From the NCBI GenBank assembly GCA_020629515.1, contig JAHDDE010000001.1, positions 51,783-115,782 on the forward strand: a stretch of 64,000 nucleotides of DNA, read 5' to 3'. This DNA comes from Saprospiraceae bacterium. GTDB lineage: Bacteria; Bacteroidota; Bacteroidia; Chitinophagales; Saprospiraceae. The position numbers were made by a program, and so were the translations under genes. Below are positions 3,180-59,916 of this stretch, piece after piece (position 1 is the first letter of the stretch; each line of letters starts with the position of its first letter). Under the pieces are notes generated by a model, which was not told the DNA's origin, did no database searches, and saw nothing but the letters and a program-made list of their open reading frames with translations.

Positions 3180-4274
3180 TTATGATAAAATTTCTTGCAA
3201 GGCCAAAATTAAGGCCTTATTTGCCTCTTCGTTACCTATAGTAATTCTAACAAACCCTGATGCTCCAAAATTATTAAGAGGTCTAATTAATATGCCTCTT
3301 TTTTCAAGTTCCTCTACAAATTTATCAGCATCCATAGGAGGATATACGAAGAAAAAATTAGCTTGAGTTTCTAAATAACTGAGGTTCAGCTTGTCAAATT
3401 CATTTTTCAATAGCCTCTTACCTGAAAGAACTACATCTACCGTCATTTTTATAAACGAAGAGTCAGATAGAGCTGCAATAGCCGCATCTATATTAAGTTT
3501 AGGCAATAAAAATGGACGACGTACTTGTCTCAAATAAGCGGCAACCTCTTTAGACATATAACCATAGCCAATTCTTAAGGCGGCTAAGCCATAAGCCTTT
3601 GAAAAACTATTAATGGCTATAATATTGGGGTAAGACTTTAATAATTCAAATCCTCTGCAGTAATCATCTGCTTCTACAAAATGCCAATAAACCTCATCAT
3701 AAAGAACAACTATATCTGAAGGTAACTTGTCAAGTAAAGAATTCAAGTCTTCTTGTGGTATATGTCTGCCTGTAGGATTGTTAGGACTTGTGAGATAAAC
3801 TATACGTGTTCTCTCTGTACAAGCAGATACTATCCCATCAATGTCTAATTCAAAATTAGCCCCTTTCAAGGGTATATCCTTGACGGCTGCACCGGCCCAC
3901 AATGAAAAGGATTTATATGGGACGAAATATGGTGATGAAATAATCACCTCATCACCCATGCTTATAAAACCTTTAATTACTAAATTGATGATTTCCGAGC
4001 CACTATTGCCACAAATGAACTGATCTTTATCTACAGTTTTCTCATAATATAATTCTAAGGCTTCTCGGAGTCGGATATCAGTTTGGTCAGGATATCGATT
4101 GAGGTCTACTAAAGCATCCGAAATAGCTTTTACAGCTAAAGGGGAAGCTCCATTAGGGTTCTCATTAGATGATAGTTTGTATACCTTACCTTCATAAGCG
4201 GCTATAGAAGCGTTACCACCTTTATACCCTCCTCTGACGGTGAAATGAGATTTAAAATGCTTATTGAGACTCAT
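3180..4274 (-). CDS. PLP-dependent aminotransferase, histidinol-phosphate aminotransferase-like
   Basis: A 364-residue fold-type I aminotransferase of the HisC-like branch, transferring an amino group between a donor such as glutamate and a 2-oxo or phosphorylated carbonyl substrate. Family motifs are SNENP (36-40), SPNNPTG (163-169), YDEVYW (192-197) and FSKAYGLAALRIGY (224-237), with Lys226 expected to form the PLP Schiff base. No other histidine-biosynthesis gene is nearby. It is the third gene of a minus-strand set after an FMN hydroxyacid oxidase and an Nramp-like transporter, with 16 bases to the transporter gene. That context makes a catabolic or specialised aminotransferase at least as likely as a HisC. 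Substrate unknown. Confidence 0.85.
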   Translation of the reverse strand: MSLNKHFKSHFTVRGGYKGGNASIAAYEGKVYKLSSNENPNGASPLAVKAISDALVDLNRYPDQTDIRLREALELYYEKTVDKDQFICGNSGSEIINLVIKGFISMGDEVIISSPYFVPYKSFSLWAGAAVKDIPLKGANFELDIDGIVSACTERTRIVYLTSPNNPTGRHIPQEDLNSLLDKLPSDIVVLYDEVYWHFVEADDYCRGFELLKSYPNIIAINSFSKAYGLAALRIGYGYMSKEVAAYLRQVRRPFLLPKLNIDAAIAALSDSSFIKMTVDVVLSGKRLLKNEFDKLNLSYLETQANFFFVYPPMDADKFVEELEKRGILIRPLNNFGASGFVRITIGNEEANKALILALQEILS

Positions 4275-4290
4275 ACATTTCAGTTATTCA

Positions 4291-5565
4291 TTAGTGACCG
4301 GTAGCAGAAATATTCAATACATAGTAGACTACAAATATCACCATTACCAGCAAACCAATGTAGGACAACCCAAGTATAAATTTGGTTACCTCAAATTCTC
4401 CTTTAAGCGTTTGGATTACTTTTAAATTTAAAAATGCCATGATAGGAGCAACAAGAAAAGATATTATAGTTGCCCATTCCAATATGGTTATCATACTCGA
4501 AGCGCTAAAATAAAACAAACCAAATCCCCCTATTCCTAATACTATTAGGGCATAATTATAAAACAAGTTCAGAAATTGATCTTGCTCAGTATTGTGCGCT
4601 ATGTGATCATATTTTAGTGCCCTCAATCCATGTACAAAACTTCTTGTAAAGGCGTCCAAGACTGTAATCAAAGTACCATAGATTGTTCCAAATGCTGCGA
4701 TAGCAATAATTGGGAAAGACCAAGCTCCAAGGTTAGACGAAAAAACCGTTAGGAGCTTTTGTGAGAAGTCCGTAGTGCCTCCATCCAATTGTTGTCCAGT
4801 ACCATATACTGTATAAGCGCCTATAACCAAAAATAAAAATGCTACCACAGCTGTAAAACCATATCCCAAGTGAAAATCGAACAATACCTCTTTGAGTGTT
4901 CCTTTATGCTGAGAAATTTTCTGATTTTTCACCACCCAAATACTATTCATTGCAGATGCCTCCAATCCTGTGGGCATCCAACCTATTAAACCTATAAGCA
5001 ATGTGAGACCAGCGCCTTCGAACAAAGGTGGGGTAATAAAATCCGCAGAAGGACTTACAGGACCTTTTAACATTACTGCAATGAAAGCGATCAGAACTGT
5101 AATCAAAAGTATCAAAGAAATAAATTTAATCACAACATCCAATCCTCTATACCCTCCAGTAAGCAATAGCACTACAGTCAGAAAGATGATAATTCCCGCT
5201 AAAAGAGGTGTTGCTATTGACCAATTAAACATGGTTGATAATAGTCCTGCACTTACTGCTCCTATAGCCCCTGTAACTGCAAACATACTAACGACTATAA
5301 CTAACAAAAATAGATATACAGCCCATTTCCCCTGCTCTCTATAACCTTTGAGTAAACTATGTCCAGTAGCCGCAGCGTATCTTGGGCCAAATTCAAAAAA
5401 TGGATATTTAAATAGAAGAGCAAAGAGAATAATCCAAAAATAGATCATGCCGTGATGCGCTCCCGCTCTCGTTGAGAGTACTAAGTGAGAAGTCCCAATA
5501 GAAGAACTTGCGAAGATTAATCCAGGACCTATACTTTTCAATAGTTTTTTATTTAATCCTATCAT
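4291..5565 (-). CDS. Nramp-family transporter lacking the canonical metal-binding motifs
   Basis: A polytopic transporter (424 aa from this start) with an Nramp-type layout: GPGLIFASSSIGTSH in the first helix and a GLIGWMPTGLEAS segment where helix 6 is expected. Classical Nramp proteins carry DPGN in helix 1 and MPH in helix 6, both part of the metal site. Here the aligned residues read GTSH and MPT, so the usual Asp/Asn ligands are missing. The ATG at 5565 is chosen because it leads directly into helix 1 and overlaps the upstream oxidase gene by only 17 bases; an in-frame ATG at 5628 would overlap by 80. Mn/Fe transport should not be assumed. Confidence 0.8.
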   Translation of the reverse strand: MIGLNKKLLKSIGPGLIFASSSIGTSHLVLSTRAGAHHGMIYFWIILFALLFKYPFFEFGPRYAAATGHSLLKGYREQGKWAVYLFLLVIVVSMFAVTGAIGAVSAGLLSTMFNWSIATPLLAGIIIFLTVVLLLTGGYRGLDVVIKFISLILLITVLIAFIAVMLKGPVSPSADFITPPLFEGAGLTLLIGLIGWMPTGLEASAMNSIWVVKNQKISQHKGTLKEVLFDFHLGYGFTAVVAFLFLVIGAYTVYGTGQQLDGGTTDFSQKLLTVFSSNLGAWSFPIIAIAAFGTIYGTLITVLDAFTRSFVHGLRALKYDHIAHNTEQDQFLNLFYNYALIVLGIGGFGLFYFSASSMITILEWATIISFLVAPIMAFLNLKVIQTLKGEFEVTKFILGLSYIGLLVMVIFVVYYVLNISATGH

Positions 5566-6742
5566 TGTTATGTACACTTGGTGAGAAAATTGGAATTTGC
5601 GAGACTTCGGATAACCTTTCAATCCCACACTGAATCATATTATTACTTAGATCATCTTTGAGTAATTCGATGACGTGGGCCACACCAATTTCGCCCAATG
5701 CGCATACTCCATAAATAAAAGGTCTTCCTAACAATACAAAGTCAGCTCCAATAGCCAATGCTTTCAGCACATCAAGACCAGATCTGACACCACTATCAAA
5801 TAGTATCTTTGTGCGAGATTTAAATTTTTGAACTATAGAAGGTAATACTTCTATAGAAGACGGAGCCCCATCAAATTGTCTGGCTCCATGGTTAGATATG
5901 ACTACACCATCAAATCCTATATCAATGGAACGTTGCACATCATCTGGATGTAATACCCCTTTCAGTACTATTGGGCCATCCCAATACTCTCTTAACTCCT
6001 CACAATAATCCCAAGACAAGTTGCCGCCCATATTATTCTGTACAAACGCCCCAACTGACATCATATCTTTAAATTCTGAATAACCTTCTATGGTACGCAA
6101 TCTGGGAAGTCCTCTTTGGATTGTCTTCCATGTCCAAGCTGGATTTTTGCATCCTTCTATGAAAAATTTAGGGTCTATTCGGGGAGGCATTGTTAAACCT
6201 GCTCTTTTGGTGCGTTCTCTTCTACTTGGAGCAGGCACATCTGCTGTAACTAAAAGCACCTTAAATCCAGAAGAACGAGCTCTATCCAGTAAGTTTCTTC
6301 TTAAAGACTTATTCTTTGGTGGATATAATTGAAACCATCCATTTGGGTTCACATATGGGCCAACGATCTCAGGTGTTTCTGTAGCAACAGTACTTAGTGA
6401 AAAAGGTATTCCATATAATTTGGCTACTTTACTAATTATTATTTCCGCTTTGGGCCACATTAATCCAGTAAGACCGACAGGAGCCACTCCAAAAGGCGCT
6501 CTATAAGACTCTCCAAACAATTCTATTCCTATATTCGGATTGAGCTGTCCTTTACAAAATTTAGGCACAAGCTGGATGTCATTTATAGCACGTTCATTTC
6601 GATCTAAAGTTAGCTCCTTTCCTGTTCCAGTTTCCAGATATTCCCAAGCCACGTTTGGTATGCGCTTTTTAGCTTTCATTTTTAAATCCTGAATAGCAGG
6701 ATATTTATTGAATAACTTAGCTTTATGTAATGCGTAGTTCAT
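5549..6742 (-). CDS. FMN-dependent alpha-hydroxy-acid oxidase/dehydrogenase
   Basis: A 397-residue TIM-barrel flavoenzyme of the glycolate oxidase / L-lactate dehydrogenase family, oxidising an L-2-hydroxy acid to the 2-oxo acid. The catalytic signature SNHGARQFDG is at 283-292 with the base His285, and the FMN-contacting lysine is in LKGV (Lys261). The late barrel segment ILFDSGVRSG and ALGADFVLLGRP-like phosphate-binding region are present. There is no signal peptide or membrane anchor. It is the first gene of the minus-strand set with the Nramp-like transporter and HisC-like aminotransferase. Lactate, glycolate or an aromatic hydroxy acid are all possible substrates; motifs alone do not decide. 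Confidence 0.88.
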   Translation of the reverse strand: MNYALHKAKLFNKYPAIQDLKMKAKKRIPNVAWEYLETGTGKELTLDRNERAINDIQLVPKFCKGQLNPNIGIELFGESYRAPFGVAPVGLTGLMWPKAEIIISKVAKLYGIPFSLSTVATETPEIVGPYVNPNGWFQLYPPKNKSLRRNLLDRARSSGFKVLLVTADVPAPSRRERTKRAGLTMPPRIDPKFFIEGCKNPAWTWKTIQRGLPRLRTIEGYSEFKDMMSVGAFVQNNMGGNLSWDYCEELREYWDGPIVLKGVLHPDDVQRSIDIGFDGVVISNHGARQFDGAPSSIEVLPSIVQKFKSRTKILFDSGVRSGLDVLKALAIGADFVLLGRPFIYGVCALGEIGVAHVIELLKDDLSNNMIQCGIERLSEVSQIPIFSPSVHNNDRIK

Positions 6743-6923
6743 GAAATTCTTCTATGCAGTAAAGTATCGAAGTTTTGATCTTACTTCTCAAAGTACAAAT
6801 ACAGATTAAAACCATTGAGCAATGACAATTCTTTTTAAAAAATATTGCGATACTTAGCATTTGGATGAATATAAATTGAGTCTCAACAAAATTTCATATG
6901 TTGTCAGTATATTATATCATATC

Positions 6924-9185
6924 ATGATTATCACCAAGATTAAATATCTTATCCTGTTATTGACAGTTCCAATTATTATTCAAGGTCAGCAATATGCTAA
7001 TCAGAGTAAGATTGATTCTCTGCTGTATCTAATAGACAATACCGATAATGACAGCACTTTATTAAGTTCATATAACTCAATTTCTGACCTATTGATCAAT
7101 GAAGATCATGAGGCATCTATTAATTACCTCCAAAATCTTATAGAAATTTGCGAACAACTCTTATTAAATAAAGAAACAGTACGTACTGAAAAACAGACAA
7201 AATATTATAATCGTCAGATAGCTTGGGGCAACTTCAGAATTGGGCAGATTCTCAATTATTATTTGGAGTACGATAGATCTATTCCTTTTATTGAGAATGC
7301 TATACGAAAAGGGAAAGAACTGAAATGGGAAGATTTAGTTTTTGATTCCTATGATGTTATGCACTTCAACTTCTATAGTTTAAATGAATACGAAAATGGA
7401 ATTAGACTAAATGATGACTATTATGATTATGCGATAGAACATAATAATAAAATGCATCAAAGTACAAGTTTGTACTATAAGGGATGGGTATACTTTGAAC
7501 AAAGGTTAAACAACGAAGCAAGGCTATATTTTGAAAAGAGTCTCCAACTTGCTGAAGAAGCGAATATTCCCGAAAGGATTGCAAGAAGTGAGGACGCTTT
7601 AGGGAGCATTTTATTAGAAGAAGGAAATCACTTCGAGGCTATTAAATATTTTATGAGATCCCTCAATACTTATGAAAAGATTGGCGATATAGCTGGCATT
7701 GCCTATGTCAACGTATGTTTAGCTAATATTTACATAGATCAGCGTGAATATGACAAATCTTTAAAACATCTCGATGTTGCTATAACTATTAAGGAAGATA
7801 ACAATCCAGATTATGAACTAATAGATAACGATTATGAGTATGTCCTCACCTCTCAGGCCAGTGCCTATAGCGGAAAAGGAGACCTTCAAATGGCTAAAAA
7901 TTTACTCCTCAAAGCAATCAAATCGAGTCTCATAAAAGGGAACAACGTGCCATTGGCCGAATCATGGATTGCATTAGGTGATCTTTATCTGCAAGAGGCA
8001 AAAATTGATTCGGCTAAACTACTTTTCACCAAAGCCTTAAACCTCAGTAAAGAGCTAAACTTTAAAGATTATTTGGCTGAGAGTCTTTCAGGTCTTGGTA
8101 GGACCTGTCTACAACAAAAAAAATACGATTGTGCAGAAAATTATTTGTTACGAGCTAAGAGAAGATATGAAGAACTAAAATCTTTAAATGGGCAAAAAGA
8201 TGTGAATCATGCCTTGTATCAGTGCTATGAACAAAATGGAAATAGTAAGAAAGCGCTAACTACTTATAAGTCATACATAGGATTTCGTGACAGTCTAAGT
8301 CGAGAAGAAAATGAAAGAGAGGTAATCAAACAAGAGTATAGTTATCAATATGATAAAAAAGCTTTTGCTGATAGTCTATACTTTGCACAAGAACAAAAAG
8401 AAATCGCTACGCAGCTATCCGTTCAGAAGCAGAGAAGTTGGTTTTTATTCGCTGGATTAGGACTTACTGTGCTATTTGGAGGTTTCATCTTCAACAGGTA
8501 TAAAGTCACTCAAAATCAAAAAAGAATAATTGAAATAGAGAGGGACAAAAGTGATAAACTATTACTCAATATTCTGCCAAGAGAGACTGCCGAAGAACTC
8601 AAATCAGATGGTAAAGTAACAGCTAAATCATATGAAGAAGCCACTGTCTTATTTTCTGATTTTGTCGATTTCACAAAGCTATCATCCCAACATTCCCCCC
8701 ACGAATTGGTTAGTTTGATTGACGAATATTTTACGGCGTTTGATAAAATAATGATTAAGCATAGTGTTGAAAAAATAAAAACTGTAGGAGATGCATATAT
8801 GGCTGTATCAGGAATCCCTAATCCAAATCCTAATCATGCATACAATTGCATGAATGCTGCATTCGAAATGATGGATGCGGTCAAGTCTATCAATATGATT
8901 AAAAAAGAACAGTCTCTACCTTATTTTGATATGCGAATTGGCATTCATAGTGGACCATTGACAAGCGGAGTTGTTGGAGAAAATAAATTTCAGTATGACG
9001 TGTGGGGTGATTCAGTTAATATAGCAAGCCGAATTGAAAGCACTTCTGAAAGAAATAAAATTAATATCTCACAATCTTTTTACGATTTAATAGAGCAACA
9101 CAAGGAAATAAAAATTACTCCAAGAGGTCCAATCAATGCAAAAGGAAAAGGAGTAATAAACATGTATTTTTTAGAGCACTGTTAA
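6924..9185 (+). CDS. Membrane TPR sensor with C-terminal class III adenylate cyclase domain
   Basis: A predicted sensor making cAMP. From the ATG at 6924 the protein has 753 residues: signal peptide (MIITKIKYLILLLTVPIII), about 480 residues of extracytoplasmic TPR repeats, one membrane helix near 505-525, a short helical linker, and a cyclase homology domain from about 572 to the end. Metal-binding aspartates are in LFSDFVDFT and VGDAYM. Purine-selecting positions are the second Lys in EKIKTVGDAYM and the Asp in YDVWGDSVN, which match adenylate rather than guanylate cyclases; DSVNIASRIE carries the transition-state Asn and Arg. An in-frame ATG at 6861 would put 21 polar residues before the signal peptide and is less likely. 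Confidence 0.87.
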   Translation: MIITKIKYLILLLTVPIIIQGQQYANQSKIDSLLYLIDNTDNDSTLLSSYNSISDLLINEDHEASINYLQNLIEICEQLLLNKETVRTEKQTKYYNRQIAWGNFRIGQILNYYLEYDRSIPFIENAIRKGKELKWEDLVFDSYDVMHFNFYSLNEYENGIRLNDDYYDYAIEHNNKMHQSTSLYYKGWVYFEQRLNNEARLYFEKSLQLAEEANIPERIARSEDALGSILLEEGNHFEAIKYFMRSLNTYEKIGDIAGIAYVNVCLANIYIDQREYDKSLKHLDVAITIKEDNNPDYELIDNDYEYVLTSQASAYSGKGDLQMAKNLLLKAIKSSLIKGNNVPLAESWIALGDLYLQEAKIDSAKLLFTKALNLSKELNFKDYLAESLSGLGRTCLQQKKYDCAENYLLRAKRRYEELKSLNGQKDVNHALYQCYEQNGNSKKALTTYKSYIGFRDSLSREENEREVIKQEYSYQYDKKAFADSLYFAQEQKEIATQLSVQKQRSWFLFAGLGLTVLFGGFIFNRYKVTQNQKRIIEIERDKSDKLLLNILPRETAEELKSDGKVTAKSYEEATVLFSDFVDFTKLSSQHSPHELVSLIDEYFTAFDKIMIKHSVEKIKTVGDAYMAVSGIPNPNPNHAYNCMNAAFEMMDAVKSINMIKKEQSLPYFDMRIGIHSGPLTSGVVGENKFQYDVWGDSVNIASRIESTSERNKINISQSFYDLIEQHKEIKITPRGPINAKGKGVINMYFLEHC

Positions 9186-9205
9186 TTTACTTCAATACTT
9201 CTTTA

Positions 9206-11341
9206 CTATCCTTTGATGCCAAAGGTCATAGTCTCATTCATGTTAAAATACATAAAGGAGAGTATATCAGCATACTCGTCCAATATTTTTGATGTTGGCT
9301 TCCCAGCACCATGACCCGCACTCGTTTCTACTCTAATAAGAACGGGATTATCACCATTATGTTGATGTTGTAATTCAGATGCAAATTTAAAAGAATGGGC
9401 TGGCACTACTCTGTCATCGTGATCTGCGGTAGTGATCATTGTCGCTGGATAAGCTCCTGGCTTAACATTATGCAAAGGGCTATACTTAATAAGATATTCA
9501 AAATCATCTGGATTATCACTACTACCATAGTCATCGACCCAAGCCCAACCTATAGTGAATTTATGGTATCTCAACATATCCAATACCCCAACAGCTGGAA
9601 AAGCCACCTTGTAGAGATCAGGGCGTTGAGTCATACATGCCCCAACTAACAATCCTCCATTACTTCCCCCTCTGATGGCGAGCTTTTCTGAATTGGTATA
9701 CCCTTCTCTTATCAAATATTCTGCTGCGGATTGGAAATCATCAAATACATTTTGTTTCCTTTCTTTTGTACCCGCCTTATGCCACTCTTTACCAAACTCT
9801 CCTCCTCCTCTTAAATTTACAACCGCATATATTCCATCATTTTCAAGAATAGGTAGATTAGTGACACTAAAACCAGGAAGAAGCGAAATATCAAATCCTC
9901 CATAGCCATAAAGCATAGTTGGATTACTACCGTCCAACTTAAGATCTTTACGATGAGTTACAAACATTGGAACATCTGTTCCATCATAACTTTTAAACCA
10001 AAGTTGCTTGGTGATATAATTATCAAAATCGAAGTTAATATCTGGTGCTTTGAACACCTTATAAGTCATCTGATCTGTATCTAATGAATAAATACTCGTT
10101 GGAACAGTAAAGGATGAAAATGAGAAAAACGCCTCATTGTCAGACTTTTTACCACTTAGTCCTCCAATATTACCAATCCCAGGTAATTTTAAATCATCAA
10201 TATATTGACCATCAAGATCAAACACCTTTACTTGACTTGAGGCATTATGTATATACTCAGCAAATATCTTTTCACCTACTATTGAGAGCGTTTGAAGCAC
10301 ATCTTGTGATTCAGGAATTACCACAGACGCACCTGAACTTAGGTTATTAGCATCTATTGATATCAACTTTTTTCTGGGGGCATCAGCATTAGTTAAAAAC
10401 AATAGTTTGCTATCATCATTATCAATAAGATTATAATCAGCCGTAAAACCTCCAAAGACCTCAATAATTTTTCCATCTGAATCTAAATCTTTGATTTTCA
10501 CAGAATTGCCACTGGTTGACTCAGATTCAGAAATGACTAAATATCGTTCATCTTCAGTAGTAGTAGCATACACATTTCTAAGTGGATGATCATCATTCTT
10601 ATAAATTAATTCATCTTGCTCCTGATCATCTCCCAACTTATGATAATACAAAGAGTGATATTCATTAATACCTGACAATTCATCTCCATCATTAGACGTC
10701 GGATAACGGCTATAAAAAAATCCATCCCCATACCAAGATATTCCAGAAAACTTAATCCAATTTAATTGATCTGATAGCTCTTCCATTGTTTCTAAATTAA
10801 GTATGTGAGCTGATCGCCAATCAGAGCCGCCTTCAGATTTAAAATAAGCCAAATATTTGCCATTCTTACTAAAATCAAGCCCCGCCAAAGATGTTGTTCC
10901 ATCCTCTGAAAACTCATTAGGATCTATTATAACTACATCGTCACCCCCTTCCACAATTTTATATAGTACACTCTGATTTTGCAGACCATCATTCTTGAAA
11001 TAATAATAATTTTCAGACTCTTTAAAAGGACTACTAAACTTTTCATAATTCCATAGTTCTTCTAACCTCTCACGTACATCATCTTTAAAATCAATATTAT
11101 CCAAATAGGATGAAGTCACTTCATTTTGTGCTATGACCCAATCCTTTGTTCGATCACTATTATCATCTTCTAACCACCTATAACTATCAACTATAGTTGT
11201 ACCATGATAATCATCTACTATAGAGCTATCTCTATCAACTTCGGGATAAACAACCTCTATCTTATCTAACTTCATAGGAGTGTCTTGACATGACAAAAAA
11301 ACAACAAATAATAAACCAGAGATAACTTTTAAATTGAACAT
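9206..11341 (-). CDS. Prolyl oligopeptidase family serine peptidase, lipoprotein
   Basis: A 711-residue S9A prolyl oligopeptidase, cleaving after proline in short peptides. The N-terminus is a lipoprotein signal (VVFLSC, lipidation Cys18), so the enzyme is probably tethered in the periplasm or outer membrane. A seven-bladed propeller (about 75-430) precedes the C-terminal alpha/beta hydrolase domain. The triad is Ser560 in RGGSNGG, an Asp within DHDD (about 640-643) and His677 in AGHGAG. Its end lies 20 bases from the convergent cyclase gene. Lipid-anchored S9A enzymes are common in marine Bacteroidota and probably take part in peptide scavenging. Confidence 0.93.
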   Translation of the reverse strand: MFNLKVISGLLFVVFLSCQDTPMKLDKIEVVYPEVDRDSSIVDDYHGTTIVDSYRWLEDDNSDRTKDWVIAQNEVTSSYLDNIDFKDDVRERLEELWNYEKFSSPFKESENYYYFKNDGLQNQSVLYKIVEGGDDVVIIDPNEFSEDGTTSLAGLDFSKNGKYLAYFKSEGGSDWRSAHILNLETMEELSDQLNWIKFSGISWYGDGFFYSRYPTSNDGDELSGINEYHSLYYHKLGDDQEQDELIYKNDDHPLRNVYATTTEDERYLVISESESTSGNSVKIKDLDSDGKIIEVFGGFTADYNLIDNDDSKLLFLTNADAPRKKLISIDANNLSSGASVVIPESQDVLQTLSIVGEKIFAEYIHNASSQVKVFDLDGQYIDDLKLPGIGNIGGLSGKKSDNEAFFSFSSFTVPTSIYSLDTDQMTYKVFKAPDINFDFDNYITKQLWFKSYDGTDVPMFVTHRKDLKLDGSNPTMLYGYGGFDISLLPGFSVTNLPILENDGIYAVVNLRGGGEFGKEWHKAGTKERKQNVFDDFQSAAEYLIREGYTNSEKLAIRGGSNGGLLVGACMTQRPDLYKVAFPAVGVLDMLRYHKFTIGWAWVDDYGSSDNPDDFEYLIKYSPLHNVKPGAYPATMITTADHDDRVVPAHSFKFASELQHQHNGDNPVLIRVETSAGHGAGKPTSKILDEYADILSFMYFNMNETMTFGIKG

Positions 11342-52607: not shown

Positions 52608-53645
52608 ATGGGGCTTAATACTACTCATCATTTTTATGAAGTCAATTCCTTTGACTCCTTCCCTCTCAAAGACCAGTCAGTAAATCTTATTGTCACCTCT
52701 CCCCCCTATCCAATGGTTGAGATGTGGGATGAAATTTTCACTACCTATCATAAATCTATCTCTACCAACCTTAAAAAAGGTGAAGGTGATAAGGCCTTCG
52801 AAAAAATGAATAAACTATTGGATAGCACTTGGGCAGAATGTTTTAGAGTATTGACAAACGGTGGATTTGCGATTATAAATATTGGAAATGCTACCAGATC
52901 TCTTGTTGGGCACTTTGAGATGTATAGTAACCATAGCCGATTTATACAATCTTTTAAAAAAATAGGTTTCGATATACTCCCTTATATAATATGGCGAAAG
53001 CCCACTAATAGCCCAACAAAATTCATGGGATCTGGTGTTCTTCCAGCAGGAGCGTACGTAACCTTAGAACATGAATATATCTTAATCCTTCGCAAAAGAG
53101 GCAAAAGATTATTTAATGAAGATGAAAAAGTTAGAAGAAGAGAGAGTGCTATATTTTGGGAAGAAAGAAATAAATGGTTTTCTGATCAATGGGAGGATAT
53201 CAGAGGTGCCCGTCAAAATCTTCAGCAGACGGCAGCAAGGAAAAGAAGTGGAGCATTTCCATTACAAATTCCATTAAGGTTGATTTTGATGTACAGTATG
53301 TACGGCGATATAGTTTTAGACCCATTTGGTGGAACAGGCACCACCAACATAGCAGCAATAATTTCTGGGAGAAATAGCATTTACTTTGATACTGATAAAG
53401 ATCTTATAAGTTCTACCCATCAAACTATGAAAGAATCCTTAACACCCGAATTATTAAATGAAGAGGTAAACAAGAGAATGACTCAACACATTTCCTTTTG
53501 TGATTCAAAAGAAGAACTTTTTTTTAAATACAGAAATGAGTATCATCATTTCCCTGTCAAAACGAATCAAGAAAAACATTTGCGATTACTTAAAGTCCAA
53601 CAGATCAAAGCATTCAAAAATCATTTTAAGGTAAGCCATGGTTAA
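52608..53645 (+). CDS. Type II DNA methyltransferase, N4-cytosine beta-class, probable CTAG specificity
   Basis: A 345-residue SAM-dependent DNA methyltransferase. Motif IV TSPPYPM (30-36) precedes motif I DPFGGTGTTNIAA (about 236-248), the beta-class order; SPPY is typical of N4-cytosine enzymes. The PPYPMVEMWD segment resembles the CTAG-specific M.MjaI/M.MthZI group. The ATG at 52608 is used: a longer frame from 52551 would run into the permease gene. Its stop codon overlaps by 4 bases the stop of a convergent MjaI-like endonuclease gene, so the two form a restriction-modification pair. About 100 residues follow motif I and may help target recognition. Confidence 0.87.
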   Translation: MGLNTTHHFYEVNSFDSFPLKDQSVNLIVTSPPYPMVEMWDEIFTTYHKSISTNLKKGEGDKAFEKMNKLLDSTWAECFRVLTNGGFAIINIGNATRSLVGHFEMYSNHSRFIQSFKKIGFDILPYIIWRKPTNSPTKFMGSGVLPAGAYVTLEHEYILILRKRGKRLFNEDEKVRRRESAIFWEERNKWFSDQWEDIRGARQNLQQTAARKRSGAFPLQIPLRLILMYSMYGDIVLDPFGGTGTTNIAAIISGRNSIYFDTDKDLISSTHQTMKESLTPELLNEEVNKRMTQHISFCDSKEELFFKYRNEYHHFPVKTNQEKHLRLLKVQQIKAFKNHFKVSHG

Positions 53646-54436
53646 CTGTTATTGTTCAACAATTCAAAGAGATCTTTTTTTTGATTACTCTCTTTAATAT
53701 CACCACTTTCCGTACATAGCAATGTATATACTTCTTTGCCAGTCTTATTGTGATATTCTAAATTTTTCTTGACATTAATATTAACTGCCTCTTTTATATA
53801 CAGCTTCCGACTATTGTAGGACATTGGTTTAATCTGAATTCCACAGATTAATCCATTTTGACCATAGACTTCTACGTCAACTGCATATTTCGTATCTATA
53901 GAAGAGGATGTCTGTTCAAATAGCAATTTTGGAAAAGAATCTTTCAAAGTGATTAAGACATTCTGCTCTCTGATATAAATGCCATTCCATGTTTCGCCCA
54001 AGAGCCTATACTTTACCAACTCAAATGATTCACTCAATCCCAAGTCTACCATATTCTGAATCATTTTTTTTAAAATAAAAGCCCTATTTAATAAAATAGC
54101 TGGAGTGCGTCCAAAATTATACTGGGCATCCAATACCTTTTGTGAGGAATTAAATTTAGAGTAGTTAGGCCCATTGCTATAATTTAATGAAAAGGCTAAT
54201 TCCGGACCAAATTTCTCAAGCAACAACTCTCTTTCATGTCCTGATGCGAAATAATAATCTTCCCATTCATGATAATGATTAAAATATTGACCCTTTATGA
54301 GGTAGCTCAACATGCCTACGCTCCATGCAGAATTAAGCCTCGCTCTATTCCAGATATCATTTGTACATCTCAATAGCTCATGAGATACTTCTAAGTCTCG
54401 TCTAACTTTTTTTGATCCACAATATTGATCTCCCAT
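53642..54436 (-). CDS. MjaI-like Type II restriction endonuclease
   Basis: A 264-residue protein that I assign to the MjaI-type endonucleases (cleavage at CTAG) from its partner and a PD-(D/E)xK-like core: Asp187-Val-Glu189 in AVDVEV, then Gln201-Ile-Lys203 in GIQIKP, a Q-x-K variant of the usual E-x-K. The GRTPAILLNRA segment (109-119) is followed by a helical middle part. It lacks a signal peptide. The gene converges on the methyltransferase with a 4-base overlap and lies downstream of porX on the minus strand. The family call depends on pattern recognition; the nuclease call is firmer than the exact specificity. Confidence 0.68.
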   Translation of the reverse strand: MGDQYCGSKKVRRDLEVSHELLRCTNDIWNRARLNSAWSVGMLSYLIKGQYFNHYHEWEDYYFASGHERELLLEKFGPELAFSLNYSNGPNYSKFNSSQKVLDAQYNFGRTPAILLNRAFILKKMIQNMVDLGLSESFELVKYRLLGETWNGIYIREQNVLITLKDSFPKLLFEQTSSSIDTKYAVDVEVYGQNGLICGIQIKPMSYNSRKLYIKEAVNINVKKNLEYHNKTGKEVYTLLCTESGDIKESNQKKDLFELLNNNS

Positions 54437-54576: not shown

Positions 54577-56133
54577 TTATCTCGGTCTAAGCTCTATGAA
54601 AGGACAGATGACTTCTTCGAGTGAAATACCTCCATGTTGAAAGGTATTCATATAAAGATTGTTGTATTGGTTATAGTTGTTAGGGTAAAGAAAGAACTTA
54701 TCTTCTTTGGCGAAGACATATTTACTACTAATATTCGTCTTAGGTAATCCTACTGCATGGGGATCATTGATCTCCAAAACATCTTTTCTTTCATAATTTA
54801 GATTACGCCCCATCTTATATCTCAGATTGGTAGTAGTATTTTTATCGCCTATCACTTTAGACGGTTTATGGACTCTAATCGTACCGTGGTCAGTTGTAAT
54901 AAAAACTTTAACTTTCTTTTCTCTTAACTTATCGAGAGCCACTCTCAGCGGTGAATTCTCAAACCAAGATATGGTAAGAGATCTATAAGCTTTTTCATCT
55001 CCAGCTAATTCTTTCAACACTTCCATCTCAGTTCGAGCATGAGAGAGCATATCGATAAAATTGTATACTACCACCGTCAGATCATTATTTAAATAATTGT
55101 AGATATTATCACTCATCTGTCGAGCTGCGTTGACATTCGTGATTTTTAAATAATCAGACTGAAGCTCTCTTCTAACAAGTCTATTTAGTTGAGATTTCAA
55201 CAACTCCGCCTCATGATTATTTTTACCCCCTTCTTCATGATCATCAAACCAATAATTCGAATAGTTCTTTTTTATATCTGCGGGCGTCATTCCAGCAAAA
55301 ATAGCGTTCCGACTATATTGAGTGCTGGTCGGAAGTATACTGTAAAAAAATTCTTCTTTTTCGACTCTATAATATTCAATAATAGCTGGCTCGATTGCTT
55401 TCCATTGATCAAATCGCAAATTGTCTAATAAAAATAAGAAGGTAGGTGTTCCCTCTGTAATATGAGGAAGCAACTTATTTTTCAATAAATTATGAGACAT
55501 GACAGGTGCTTCATCTGGATTTTGAAACCAAGTGTGATAGTTTTTCGCAACAAATTTTGAAAACTCTGCATTTGCTTCAGTTTTTTGCATTTGAAGGATG
55601 TCCATCATCTCAGGAGTTTGGGACTTATCCATTTTTAGCTCCCATGAAATAATTTTTTTATAAATTTCAACCCATCCCGCTATATCTAAACCGCTATTGA
55701 TCTCCATTAATATTTTTCTAAACTCAATCTGATAATCTGTCATTGTTTTCTCACTTACAAGACGTTTATTATCTATGAGCTTTTTAAGAGTCATCAATAT
55801 CTGATTAGGATTGACAGGCTTTATGAGGTAATCATCTATCTGAGAGCCTATCGCTTCCTCCATTAAATTCTCTGCCTCATTTTTAGTGATCATTACAACA
55901 GGAACGTTGTTATTTCTTTCTTTTATAGCTGCCAGAGTTTCAAGACCCGATATACCAGGCATAGATTCATCTAAAAATACAACGTCGATATTTTTATCTT
56001 CTTCAAACGTCTCAATTGCATCATGACCATTAGTGACAGTTATAACCTCGTAACCTTTCTTTTCCAAAAAAAACAATTGAGGTTTTAGCATGTCAATTTC
56101 GTCGTCTGCCCATAATATCCTGATATCTGCCAT
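54577..56133 (-). CDS. porX: PorX, response regulator with PglZ/alkaline phosphatase-like domain
   Basis: A 518-residue PorX protein, the response regulator of the PorX/PorY system that controls Type IX secretion genes. A receiver domain (1-120) has the acidic pocket WADDE (8-12), phospho-acceptor Asp55 in VFLDESMPG and Lys in LIKPVNP. A helical bundle follows, then a PglZ-type phosphodiesterase domain (about 200-518) with PTSTQYSRNAIFAG (nucleophile Thr/Ser region) and metal-binding TTDHGTIRVHKP. It lacks a DNA-binding domain, as PorX does. No porY kinase gene is adjacent. It is divergent from the HD hydrolase gene. Confidence 0.93.
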   Translation of the reverse strand: MADIRILWADDEIDMLKPQLFFLEKKGYEVITVTNGHDAIETFEEDKNIDVVFLDESMPGISGLETLAAIKERNNNVPVVMITKNEAENLMEEAIGSQIDDYLIKPVNPNQILMTLKKLIDNKRLVSEKTMTDYQIEFRKILMEINSGLDIAGWVEIYKKIISWELKMDKSQTPEMMDILQMQKTEANAEFSKFVAKNYHTWFQNPDEAPVMSHNLLKNKLLPHITEGTPTFLFLLDNLRFDQWKAIEPAIIEYYRVEKEEFFYSILPTSTQYSRNAIFAGMTPADIKKNYSNYWFDDHEEGGKNNHEAELLKSQLNRLVRRELQSDYLKITNVNAARQMSDNIYNYLNNDLTVVVYNFIDMLSHARTEMEVLKELAGDEKAYRSLTISWFENSPLRVALDKLREKKVKVFITTDHGTIRVHKPSKVIGDKNTTTNLRYKMGRNLNYERKDVLEINDPHAVGLPKTNISSKYVFAKEDKFFLYPNNYNQYNNLYMNTFQHGGISLEEVICPFIELRPR

Positions 56134-56294: not shown

Positions 56295-57497
56295 ATGTCC
56301 AAATTCAAAGTATTTAATGATCCAATCTACGGGCTAATCAATTTCCCTTTTGAGATTATCTACCGCTTGATAGATCACAGGTACTTTCAACGATTGAGGC
56401 GAATTTCTCAAGTTGGGCTATCTTCCTTGGTCTATCCTGGAGCTACTCATACGCGATTTCATCATGCTCTCGGAGTGGCACACCTTTGCTCAGAACTTAT
56501 AATTAATCTAAGGTTAAAAGGTGTCGAAATTACTGATGAAGAATATGAGGCCACCTGTATAGCAGCATTATTACATGATATTGGACATGGCCCATTCTCT
56601 CATGCATTAGAATACCAGATCCTCCCTATACATCATGAAAAAATTACTTTGCTCATGATGAATATCCTTAATGATGAATTTGATGGAGCCCTTTCTTTGG
56701 CAATTAAAATTTTTAAGAAAGAATATGATAAAACATTCTTGCATCAGTTGTTATCAAGTCAATTGGATGTAGACAGAATGGATTACCTCAACCGTGATAG
56801 TTATTATACAGGAGTCGCTGAAGGCATTATTGGTTATGACAGAATCATAAAAATGATGAATGTTGTCGATAATCAGCTGATAGTTGAATCTAAGGCTATC
56901 TATAGCATAGAAAAGTTTTTAATCTCGAGATATCTCATGTATCGCCAAGTATACCTGCACAAAACTGCTATATCTGCAGAACAGATGTTGAAACTTTTTT
57001 ATTCTGAACTCAAAGAAAGCTTTCTCAATGAACATATTGACTCAAATATTTTAGCACAATTAGCACAATTAAATGAAGATCAAATAAATAAGGATAGTGT
57101 AGAATTATTTTCAAGGCTCGATGATATCGATATTATCGTAGCAATAAAAAATAAGGTTCATTCAAAAAATTATATTCTGAACTATCTATCCCAAAGTATA
57201 TTGAACAGACGTTTATTTCGAACTATCGTTCAAAAATCACCATTCAGTAGTGACTTTATAAGTAACCTCCGTCTTAAAACCGAAAATACGTTGCTTGTAA
57301 CGCCTCCTATATCAATGAAACTGATTATTTTTGGGGCGGATAAGAGCAGCATGTATAATAAGGAAGACGAAATAATCATAATGCACTCACCATCCGAAAC
57401 CAAACCATTCGCCGAAATATCCCAATTTCAATCAATCGAATACAATGAAAATTTAAATTTTATTTCATTTCCAAAGGAAATATTGGAGATAGATTAA
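56295..57497 (+). CDS. HD-domain phosphohydrolase
   Basis: A 400-residue HD-superfamily protein related to dNTP triphosphohydrolase-type enzymes. Metal-binding residues are His57 region (HTRFHHALGV), His94-Asp95 in LLHDIGHGPFSHALE, and an Asp in QLDVDRMDYLNRD. The segment IYGLINFP at the N-terminus and the RRISQVGLSSLVYPGATHTR motif are characteristic of this widespread HD family. It probably acts on nucleotides in the cytoplasm; the substrate is not settled. The C-terminal 100 residues are less conserved. It lies 64 bases before the large repeat protein gene. Confidence 0.87.
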   Translation: MSKFKVFNDPIYGLINFPFEIIYRLIDHRYFQRLRRISQVGLSSLVYPGATHTRFHHALGVAHLCSELIINLRLKGVEITDEEYEATCIAALLHDIGHGPFSHALEYQILPIHHEKITLLMMNILNDEFDGALSLAIKIFKKEYDKTFLHQLLSSQLDVDRMDYLNRDSYYTGVAEGIIGYDRIIKMMNVVDNQLIVESKAIYSIEKFLISRYLMYRQVYLHKTAISAEQMLKLFYSELKESFLNEHIDSNILAQLAQLNEDQINKDSVELFSRLDDIDIIVAIKNKVHSKNYILNYLSQSILNRRLFRTIVQKSPFSSDFISNLRLKTENTLLVTPPISMKLIIFGADKSSMYNKEDEIIIMHSPSETKPFAEISQFQSIEYNENLNFISFPKEILEID

Positions 57498-57561: not shown

Positions 57562-59916
57562 ATGAAAAATCTTAACTCATTGTTTACCGCTATCTTATGC
57601 TTAGCGTTTGTGAGCATGTATGCGCAACCTGAAGCAGGTATGCCATCAGAGCCAGGCAAATGTTATGCTAAGTGTTTGATCGCTGATCAGTATGAGACAG
57701 TGACTGAGCAAGTTTTGGTAAAAGAAGCTTCTTCAAAAGTTTCTATTGTACCGGCTAAGTATGAGACGGTAACTGAGCAAGTATTAGCTAAAGAGGCTGC
57801 AACGACTCTTTCTGTTAATCCAGCAACATTCGAAACTGTAACTGAGCAAGTATTAGCTCAAGATGCAGGAAAAAGAGTTTCGACAACTCCAGCTACATTT
57901 GAAACAGTATCTGAAAGAGTGATCAAATTTATTGATGCTCCAGGTGTTTCAGTTGTTCCTGCTTCGTTCGAAACTGTAACCGAGCAAGTATTAGTACAAG
58001 ATGCTTACACAACTCTTCAGGTAGTTCCAGCTACATTTGAAACTGTAACTGAGCAGGTATTAGTGCAAGATGCTTACACAACTCTACAAGTTGTTCCAGC
58101 AACTTATGAAACTGTAACTGAACAAGTATTGGTAAAAGAAGCTTATAGCACTACTGCTCAAGCTCCTGCTATCACTGACGGTCCAGGCCTAATTGATATG
58201 ATCTCGAGCGGATCTAACAGTTACACAACTTCAAATGGAGTAACAAGAACTTTTTCTTCAGCTGAAGTTAGTGCCTTAAAAGCATTAATCGATGGTGGAA
58301 ATGGTTCTGGAGGTTCATTAACTGGAGCTCAATTGAGCAGAATTTTAACTTCTGATCAATACGGAAACGTGTATGCGACTATGACTGAGCAAGTTTTGAC
58401 TCAAGATGCTTATAACACAATCAACACTTTCCCAGCTCAGTATGAGACTGTGACAGAACAAGTGTTAGTGAAAGAAGCAGGTACAAGAATTGAAACAAGA
58501 CCTGCAGGATACGAAACTGTAACAGAAACAATACAAACTTCTCCAGCAAGTACTAAGTGGGTGAAGAAAAAAGCAGATAGAAACTGTTTATCTGCGGATC
58601 CAAATGATTGTTTAGTATGGTGTTTAGTTGAAGTTCCTGCTCAATTCAAAACAGTTACTAAGTCTGTTAGAAAAGCTTGTGAAGCAGGCTGGACTTCAAG
58701 TGGAGAAGATTGTGTAAGAACTGTTGAAGTTCCTGCTGAATATTCTACTAGAAGTTTCCAAAAATTAGCTTCAGCTGCAGGATCAAACACGAATGCAGTA
58801 GCAGCAAAATACGGAACAAGAACTTACAAAAAGTTAATTGTACCAGCTGGAACATACAGCACACAAGCTCCTGCTCAATATAGTACAAGAACGTATAGAA
58901 AAGTTGCCACTCCAGCTTCTACAACAGCGGTTGAAGTACCAGCTCAATATACTACAAGAACAATTAAAAAATTGAAGTCACCAGCTACTACAACAGTTGT
59001 TGAAGTACCAGCTCAATACACTACAAGAACATTCAAAAAATTAGCTAATGATGCCGCTACAGTTGAAGTAGCTTGTGGTAAGTCTTCTATATTAGAAGGT
59101 ATCAACTTTGAGAGTGGTTCAGCGAGATTGACTGCTTCTTCAAGTGCAGCAATAGCGAGATTGACAGCGATGTTAAACGATAAGCCTGCTGTAACTGCAA
59201 GATTAATCGGACATACTGATAGTCAAGGTGGCGAAGCTGCTAACGCTGATCTTTCAAGAAGAAGAGCTAAAGCAGTGTACGATGCAATAGTTGCTTCTGG
59301 AATATCTGCTTCAAGATTGAGCTATGAAGGAAGAGGGGAAGCTTCTCCAATTGCTTCTAACGAAACTGCTGCGGGTAGAAGAGCAAACAGAAGAACTGAG
59401 TTTATCACTTTTGGTGATAACGATGGTGCAGGAGACTGTACAGTATATGAGACAAGAACATTCCAAAAGTTAGTTTCAGATGCTTCAGTTGGATCTGATG
59501 ACATAGCAGCAAAATACGAAACAAGAACATACAAAAAGTTGGCTAATGATGCTTCAGTAAGTTCTAATGACATTCCAGTGGCATACGAAACAAGAAGTTT
59601 CCAGAAGTTAGCTTCATCTGCTACCACTACTACATCTGAGATACCTGCACAGTACAACACAGTTACTAAAACTAATTTAGTTAAAGCTGGTGGTTTTACT
59701 GAGTGGAGAGAAGTAATCTGTAATGCAGATATCACTCCTTCTTTCTACAGAAGCGTACAACAAGCTTTAAATGATAGAGGTTACGATGCAGGTCCAGTTG
59801 ATGGACAGGTTGGAGCGAGAACTAAAGCTGCTTTAGTTAAATTCCAAAGAGATAACAACCTTCCAATTGGAAGTATGGATATCGAAACTCTTAAAGCTCT
59901 TGGTATACAGAGATAA
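57562..59916 (+). CDS. Repetitive outer-membrane protein with OmpA and peptidoglycan-binding domains
   Basis: A 784-residue exported protein (signal peptide ending about residue 21, SMYAQ). The mature part is built from two kinds of roughly 23-residue repeats. Type A (YETVTEQVLVKEA plus a valine-rich spacer ending PAT/PAQ) occurs about 9-10 times in 44-330. Type B (YxTRT(Y/F)KKLA plus spacer) occurs five times before and three times after an OmpA domain (about 507-622; GHTDSQGG, LSRRRA, NRRTEF). A C-terminal PG_binding_1 domain (about 725-784; SVQQALNDRGY, VDGQVGARTKAAL) follows. Non-repeat insertions lie at about 204-273 and 335-390, the latter with a cysteine cluster. Two wall-binding modules suggest a structural envelope protein; its own promoter and terminator make it a single-gene unit. 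Confidence 0.85.
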   Translation: MKNLNSLFTAILCLAFVSMYAQPEAGMPSEPGKCYAKCLIADQYETVTEQVLVKEASSKVSIVPAKYETVTEQVLAKEAATTLSVNPATFETVTEQVLAQDAGKRVSTTPATFETVSERVIKFIDAPGVSVVPASFETVTEQVLVQDAYTTLQVVPATFETVTEQVLVQDAYTTLQVVPATYETVTEQVLVKEAYSTTAQAPAITDGPGLIDMISSGSNSYTTSNGVTRTFSSAEVSALKALIDGGNGSGGSLTGAQLSRILTSDQYGNVYATMTEQVLTQDAYNTINTFPAQYETVTEQVLVKEAGTRIETRPAGYETVTETIQTSPASTKWVKKKADRNCLSADPNDCLVWCLVEVPAQFKTVTKSVRKACEAGWTSSGEDCVRTVEVPAEYSTRSFQKLASAAGSNTNAVAAKYGTRTYKKLIVPAGTYSTQAPAQYSTRTYRKVATPASTTAVEVPAQYTTRTIKKLKSPATTTVVEVPAQYTTRTFKKLANDAATVEVACGKSSILEGINFESGSARLTASSSAAIARLTAMLNDKPAVTARLIGHTDSQGGEAANADLSRRRAKAVYDAIVASGISASRLSYEGRGEASPIASNETAAGRRANRRTEFITFGDNDGAGDCTVYETRTFQKLVSDASVGSDDIAAKYETRTYKKLANDASVSSNDIPVAYETRSFQKLASSATTTTSEIPAQYNTVTKTNLVKAGGFTEWREVICNADITPSFYRSVQQALNDRGYDAGPVDGQVGARTKAALVKFQRDNNLPIGSMDIETLKALGIQR
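57691..58170 (+). repeat. In-frame 69-bp tandem repeats, type A
   Basis: Seven consecutive 69-base units (one with a variant core) encode the YETVTEQVL repeat. Units beginning near 57967 and 58036 encode identical 23-residue stretches (FETVTEQVLVQDAYTTLQV plus VPAT) and are nearly identical in DNA, which invites slippage or recombination. Two further units and a partial one follow at about 58381-58550. Confidence 0.85.
58741..59691 (+). repeat. In-frame repeats, type B, interrupted by the OmpA domain
   Basis: Five units at about 58741-59070 and three at about 59446-59650 encode the YxTRTxKKL repeat with 69-72 base spacing; a last hybrid unit (YNTVTKTNL) ends near 59691. The OmpA domain lies between the two groups, so the repeat array was either split by domain insertion or grew on both sides of it. 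Confidence 0.8.

Follow-up and report, generated by a model that had tools for sequence, protein, structure and literature searches.

The window analyzed here is a stretch of 64,000 nucleotides from a Saprospiraceae bacterium (contig JAHDDE010000001.1). On its + strand, the open reading frame 57562-59916, whose position the earlier note had given exactly, encodes a protein of 784 amino acids. It is composed of two repeat arrays, termed A arm and B arm, two wall-binding domains, and several Cys-rich segments. These features are collected in Table 1 together with two neighboring genes.

Table 1. Features of the window protein and neighboring genes (positions refer to the window; locus counts refer to the neighborhood comparison of 81 loci).
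Feature	Position	Strand	Remarks
porX (T9SS response regulator)	54577..56133	-	NF052313, E 6e-240; relative in 63/81 loci
HD-domain-like hydrolase, upstream	56295..57497	+	weak dGTPase matches only; relative in 73/81 loci
Signal peptide	57562..57627	+	by eye: Sec type I, cleavage after MYAQ, without lipobox; helix 5-17 in AlphaFold model
Base motif GKCYAKC	57655..57675	+	residues 32-38, Cys34 and Cys38; 7/7 residues invariant in 20-member alignment
A arm, units A1-A7	57691..58173	+	residues 44-204, 23 residues per unit; unit profile
A-arm non-repeat insert	58174..58371	+	66 residues, partly helical in AlphaFold model
A arm, units A8-A10	58372..58578	+	residues 271-339; unit profile
Tip/junction CLSADPNDCLVWC	58585..58623	+	Cys342, 350, 354; inferred hairpin turn; conserved in family alignment; ladder symmetry by hand calculation
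B1 unit with extra loop	58645..58740	+	32 residues; Cys373 and Cys384 in loop
B arm, units B2-B6	58741..59073	+	ends at Cys505
OmpA-like domain within B arm	59074..59439	+	PF00691 at residues 516-610; Cys505 and Cys626 on flanks; looping-out is a proposal
B arm, units B7-B10	59446..59721	+	terminal base motif WREVIC, Cys720
C-terminal PG_binding_1 domain	59722..59913	+	PF01471 at residues 730-780

A unit profile built from the family resolves the window protein into 10 A units and 10 B units of 23 residues each, in line with the period of about 23 residues read from the sequence earlier. Units were called at a threshold of 4.5 bits; for shuffled family sequences, the 99.99th percentile is 0.15 bits. 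Across the 120 family ORFs, there are 1028 A spacings and 892 B spacings of 23 residues. In the window protein, the spacing departs from 23 at three places: the 66-residue insert between A7 and A8, the 9-residue Cys loop of B1, and the OmpA-like domain between B6 and B7. The earlier note was silent on the A insert, on the conserved Cys-rich A/B junction, and on the equal numbers of A and B units.

The closest relative of the window protein is L021 from Saprospirales bacterium GYS_P2D, with 77% identity. Between the two, the overall dN/dS is 0.116, and no stretch of either arm reaches 0.15, which argues that the repeats are maintained as protein. For the A-arm insert, 53 of the 66 residues are alignable in L021, at 68% identity as compared to 80-83% in the adjacent A-arm stretches, and a Pfam search returned zero matches above cut-off.

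Both wall-binding domains are of ordinary, already known kinds. PF00691 matches with an E value of 2e-20 and 73.4 bits (gathering cut-off 27.2), PF01471 with 9e-12 and 45.4 bits (gathering cut-off 23); the earlier statements that an OmpA domain interrupts the B block and that PG_binding_1 caps the chain at its C-terminus are thereby borne out. The OmpA-like domain gives a fold match with Z about 15, and its HTD and LSxxRA segments align with those of OprF 5u1h (HTDS, LSERRA), YiaD 2k1s, and PA0833 6jfw. We take these segments to hold the diaminopimelate-binding Asp and Arg of OmpA-like domains; binding in the window protein is predicted. The C-terminal domain of family member L091 matches the SltB3 and SleB domains in fold with Z 7-8. 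Peptidoglycan binding of the window protein at two points is thus a prediction from domain identity. The Pal equivalog TIGR02802 scores 50.3 bits, below its cut-off of 125.35, and no Pal-like lipobox was found at the N-terminus when read by eye. With OmpA/Pal/YiaD-type envelope proteins (PF00691), the window protein shares the OmpA-like domain by profile, sequence, and fold; it differs from them in having no lipobox by eye and no beta-barrel family in Pfam, and in carrying the OmpA domain within a repeat array. Its C-terminal domain matches PG_binding_1 domains such as those of SltB3, SleB, and CtpB (PF01471) by profile, and that of L091 does so by fold, but the window protein has no enzyme domain above the Pfam cut-off.

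ORFs containing the junction were collected from the loci L001-L130, amounting to 135 occurrences and 120 distinct proteins, 102 of which are complete. With the junction profile, matches were obtained in 99 of 298 genomes sampled from the order and, at the level of the phylum, in 11 of 395, a number that includes the genome of the window itself. A contig scan revealed 275 relatives, the best 80 of which are all assigned to Saprospirales, Saprospiraceae, Lewinella, Lewinellaceae, Aureispira, Portibacter, or 'Bacteroidetes bacterium'. Judged by these matches, the family range is mainly Saprospiraceae and related Bacteroidota. For the neighborhood comparison, 80 loci and the window were used, with flanks of up to 6 kb. 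Besides the genes in Table 1, a hydroxymethyltransferase-like ORF downstream has a relative in 30 of the 81 loci. At 52608-54436 the window carries a methylase-like ORF and a convergent ORF of 264 residues without NCBIfam match, by eye resembling a small restriction-modification insertion; no relatives of these ORFs were found in the 80 loci compared, whose flanks of at most 6 kb are possibly too short to reach them.

Among the 102 complete members, 79 are without OmpA domain, 15 carry a single one, which invariably lies in the B arm, and eight carry two, one per arm. The OmpA insert is therefore not the defining feature of the family. Where a single domain is inserted, a Cys is found close to both of its ends in 17 of 17 rows (L003 and L050 stem from N-terminally cut ORFs); taking all 40 OmpA rows with sufficient flank, 25 have a Cys at both ends.

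The earlier note had regarded A and B as diverged relatives. A profile-profile comparison of the two gives a probability of 98.2 (scale 0-100) with E 4e-14, and all nine controls, eight column-shuffled and one reversed, remain at a probability of 0.31 or less. This profile evidence identifies A and B units as homologs. The contrast in charge is real as well: the mean net charge per unit is -1.59 in A and +1.65 in B, and of 36 non-redundant OmpA-free members, 30 have a net negative A arm and 33 a net positive B arm. Pfam reports no family above cut-off over the repeats, and G5 is absent from the list of matches down to E 1. When the PDB was searched with the family profile, the 15 sequences matched down to E 1 (best 5e-4) aligned only with its PG-binding part.

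AlphaFold2 was applied to the window protein (mean pLDDT 73.6, pTM 0.33) and to L091, a member with 7+7 units (mean pLDDT 70.3, pTM 0.40). In both models, most A and B units consist of a 12-residue strand and a 7-residue strand separated by 2-residue breaks, a pattern that is consistent with a ladder in which 12 lies opposite 12 and 7 opposite 7. With pTM values this low, the global arrangement is unreliable, and only the predicted beta units are taken from the models. Structure prediction, which the earlier note had named as a check, hence supports one common beta unit for A and B when whole proteins are modeled, but not an arrangement of the arms. Foldseek with the low-confidence whole model of L091 gave long alignments across the arms with probabilities of at most 0.13; the top matches, long beta-hairpin pore proteins, were not counted as homologs. 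The VIA-align rows cover the PG-binding and OmpA domains and no others.

As a measure that sidesteps many unit-counting errors, we defined LA as the number of residues from GKC to the junction and LB as that from the junction to WREVxC. Both lengths were measurable in 90 of the 120 proteins, since 18 incomplete ORFs were dropped and 12 further, complete ORFs without recognizable base motif were left out of the length test. In the 68 OmpA-free members, LA ranges from 83 to 497 residues and is closely followed by LB (r = 0.988, slope 1.003). The difference LB minus LA is 0 in nine members, 8 or 9 residues, equal to the B1 loop, in 39, and another value of 5-13 in nine. Eight members are one repeat off (-14 or +32), and differences of -21, 54, and 100 occur once each. 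In 48 of the 68 members, the arms are thus exactly equal in length or deviate only by the 8-9 residues of the B1 loop. Phylogenetic contrasts in these 68 members retain the correlation (r = 0.91, 67 contrasts).

Unit counts, which reach 24 in A among the 102 complete members, point the same way. Counted automatically, A equals B in 57 of these members and differs in 45. In the non-redundant set, 34 of 56 members have equal counts; 100,000 shuffles gave 4.2 on average and never more than 14. Equal counts are found in 46 of 79 members without OmpA domain, seven of 15 with one, and four of eight with two. The 14 measured single-OmpA members show r = 0.93 at a slope of 0.57, and L070, L075, and L079 in this group have 3-6 fewer B units than A units; the eight two-OmpA members span a narrow length range and give r = 0.13. 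The earlier note had named a survey of repeat numbers in related strains as a check; at the level of family members, counts vary and arm lengths match in the OmpA-free set.

Length changes were followed in nearest pairs of members, of which 23 out of 34 had changed in length (r = 0.956). In five of these 23, the change is equal in the two arms to within one residue; in 13, both arms changed in one direction but to differing extents; the remaining five changed in a single arm. The one-arm changes amount to exactly one repeat in L024/L027, L058/L092, and L072/L100 and to three repeats in L007/L044. Such differences in close members may represent stepwise intermediates or assembly errors.

Irregular inserts were compared in members with one insert per arm, 17 of 25 being kept by the redundancy filter. 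The number of units between insert and junction is identical in both arms in seven of the 17 (1.9 expected, p = 0.001), and within one unit in ten (5.6 expected, p = 0.017). In the other seven, the window protein (3 versus 6 units from the tip), L038, L048, L049, L068, L080, and L088, the inserts are more than one unit apart. Insert heights thus indicate that mirroring is real in part of the family, and that the window protein is not among the mirrored members.

Coevolution between the arms was measured as mutual information of A versus B positions in 116 proteins (about 76 effective; four of the 120 ORFs were not entered), controlled by shuffling the B units within the same protein. The strongest line is antiparallel and connects A unit i with B unit i-1 at position sum i+j = 34 (mean centered Z 4.61). 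A weaker antiparallel line connects A unit i with B unit i at i+j = 10-12 (Z 0.9-1.4), and at all other shifts the lines stay at or below 1.13. Compared with the shuffles, total mutual information is elevated at every shift tried, with z of 6.4-9.0 off register and of 14.3 and 25.1 in register; hence, a diffuse background signal is also present. In a joint coordinate, the antiparallel offset 11 has a mean Z of 2.95, the offsets 9, 10, and 12 have 1.1-1.4, and all other antiparallel offsets have 0.51 or less, at a standard deviation of 0.46 over 103 offsets. Random halves of the data, with related proteins present in both, each peak at offset 11 (2.78 and 1.60). The two antiparallel lines are, as far as covariation can tell, one continuous ladder in mirrored register. 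A parallel A:B arrangement was rejected, the best parallel offset reaching only 0.79. An earlier run with 36 members had given z 10.4 for the mirrored register, 6.8 for its neighbor, and 5.7 for parallel pairing; the latter signal may come from middle units that coincide in short arms.

Within the unit, the coevolution peak covers A11-A19, i.e., the 7-residue strand and its flanks, and the 12-residue strand is weaker. At A18-B16, charges are opposite in 42% of cases (19% expected) and alike in 0.1% (21% expected). A11-B23 and A16-B18 follow the same trend, and A15-B19 is contrary to it, with opposite charges in 6.5% (10.5% expected); all these charge counts lack the within-protein control. Extrapolation of the ladder by hand arithmetic from the offset, ignoring the B1 loop, places its symmetry point at residue 344, in the CLSADPNDC loop.

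The earlier note had proposed that A and B blocks could pair. Since arm lengths match, inserts mirror each other in part of the family, and units coevolve in antiparallel order, we regard the two arrays as putative partners; A:B pairing is well supported by these three lines, and charge swaps at several inferred contacts agree with it. Taken as a whole, the earlier interpretation is partly supported. We consider it likely that one chain is folded as a giant antiparallel beta hairpin, anchored to peptidoglycan, in which A and B arrays are paired one-to-one. The protein would be secreted and most likely periplasmic. From the base, the acidic A array would extend outward, a turn would follow in the conserved Cys loop (NCLSADPNDCLVWC), from where the basic B array would return antiparallel, resulting in a single continuous two-stranded beta ladder with A unit k from the tip opposite B unit k. 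Ribbon length would be tunable, such that gain or loss of repeats in one arm tends toward a match in the other. At the base, GKCYAKC and WREVxC would be brought together next to the C-terminal peptidoglycan-binding domain. In some members, including the window protein, the OmpA domain would be looped out of the B arm and provide a second wall contact, and the ribbon could act as a peptidoglycan-anchored strap or stalk.

Intra-chain pairing, disulfides, periplasmic location, wall binding, and the role as a strap are what we infer from these data, location and strap role on account of the signal peptide, the wall-binding domains, and the lipoprotein-like short relatives. Three conserved Cys are found at the base and three at the tip, an odd number each, which counts against the hairpin with disulfides. 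By arithmetic, a fully extended 10-unit ribbon would measure about 76 nm at 3.3 A per residue. This exceeds the periplasm, so a ribbon of that length could only be accommodated by running along the wall, by coiling, or by kinking. Coiling with stacked turns should give a second ladder, which is absent from the offset profile; the profile is nevertheless compatible with coiling.

Equal lengths, mirrored inserts, and the ladder specify the partner units but are silent on whether these belong to the same or to different chains. They would equally be produced by pairing between two molecules, in a domain-swapped antiparallel dimer or a fibre. We consider this arrangement unlikely, because the A/B junction is short and conserved around the Cys loop, and because the repeat-poor relatives L139, L141, L143, and L147, with the tip, most of the base motif, and short arms, suit a simple hairpin. 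Less probable still is that A and B form independent beta straps or solenoids which space the wall-binding domains and owe their equal length to a shared optimum or to ancestry. The single-OmpA members, which fall off slope 1, and the failure of AlphaFold to give a confident global fold would fit such straps, and variable-length repeat spacers are known among bacterial surface proteins (PMC8201768). Arm lengths that are equal to the residue in many members, the correlation left in phylogenetic contrasts, and antiparallel coevolution limited to one offset and its neighbors under a within-protein shuffle control argue against independent straps.

Finally, the equality might arise at the DNA level, by joint duplication, by gene conversion between the arms, or by collapsed repeats in metagenome assemblies. 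The named loci are mostly metagenome-assembled, and some close members are one repeat apart in one arm. But gene conversion predicts similarity at the same position rather than an antiparallel line, and assembly errors are expected to break equality, not to create it, so that we give this explanation very little weight. A DNA hairpin between the arms was also rejected, as the window gene has only one 15-nt inverted repeat pair.

One of the closest analogies to the single-chain hairpin is given by the antiparallel coiled-coil arms of SMC-type proteins, which are matched in length, fold back at a tip, and are joined at a base. Two matched arms, tip, and base are alike by analogy, and homology is not claimed; the SMC arms are helical coiled coils, whereas a beta ladder of 23-residue repeats is predicted here. 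A literature search by repeat strings gave no match in open-licence papers, and among the matches listed, none of the open-licence papers describes the family in its title or the start of its abstract. Periscope proteins are presented in PMC8201768 as variable-length bacterial surface proteins with tandem SHIRT domains. They are alike in that length varies through repeat copy number among relatives; the difference is that here two arrays covary and appear to pair, in place of tandem SHIRT domains. The matched-repeat zip design is not recognized by the libraries searched in this study. Whether the paired-array architecture is previously undescribed as a whole we judge to be evenly balanced; it would comprise two homologous, oppositely charged arrays kept at equal copy number by selection, zipped antiparallel into a two-stranded beta ribbon, covalently locked at tip and base, and forming a length-tunable wall-anchored strap with loop-out domains at set heights.

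If this reading is true, the family represents a repeat architecture with two arrays obliged to change in step, and thus a natural experiment on tandem-repeat growth under a pairing constraint, in which possible one-arm intermediates are visible. The family further suggests a beta ribbon that is genetically encoded and tunable and for which contact rules are predicted. It also draws attention to a so far unstudied wall-binding protein of Saprospiraceae, encoded in a conserved neighborhood that includes porX, the gene of the T9SS regulator.

Beyond the long members, several related forms were found. In L134, L135, and L137, from another family of the class, reading by eye gives about four units per arm and an OmpA-like domain at the C-terminus, where the window protein carries PG_binding_1; on this reading, the C-terminal domain is of a wall-binding type in both forms. 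The repeat-poor L139, L141, L143, and L147 retain the tip as well as most base motifs; their arms measure 55-57 and 54-58 residues, and L147 is without one base Cys. The N-termini of L141, L143, and L147 appear lipobox-like by eye, suggesting a short lipoprotein form alongside the long soluble one. L136 is a small member from another class of the phylum; its segment gave no match against phages, and neither did the window junction against plasmids. A replicon of Methylobacterium bullatum contains a 240-residue frame, read as 2 A and 2 B units without PG_binding_1, with 38% identity over 46% of the query. At L144 (positions 4023-10154; G024, contig 542), an open frame of 2043 residues encloses a repeat cassette that shares the Cys-rich junction of the family; this could be a true fusion or an assembly join. 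By eye, this frame is TonB-plug/alpha-2-macroglobulin-like, and a separate mini form of 224 residues is located upstream of it.
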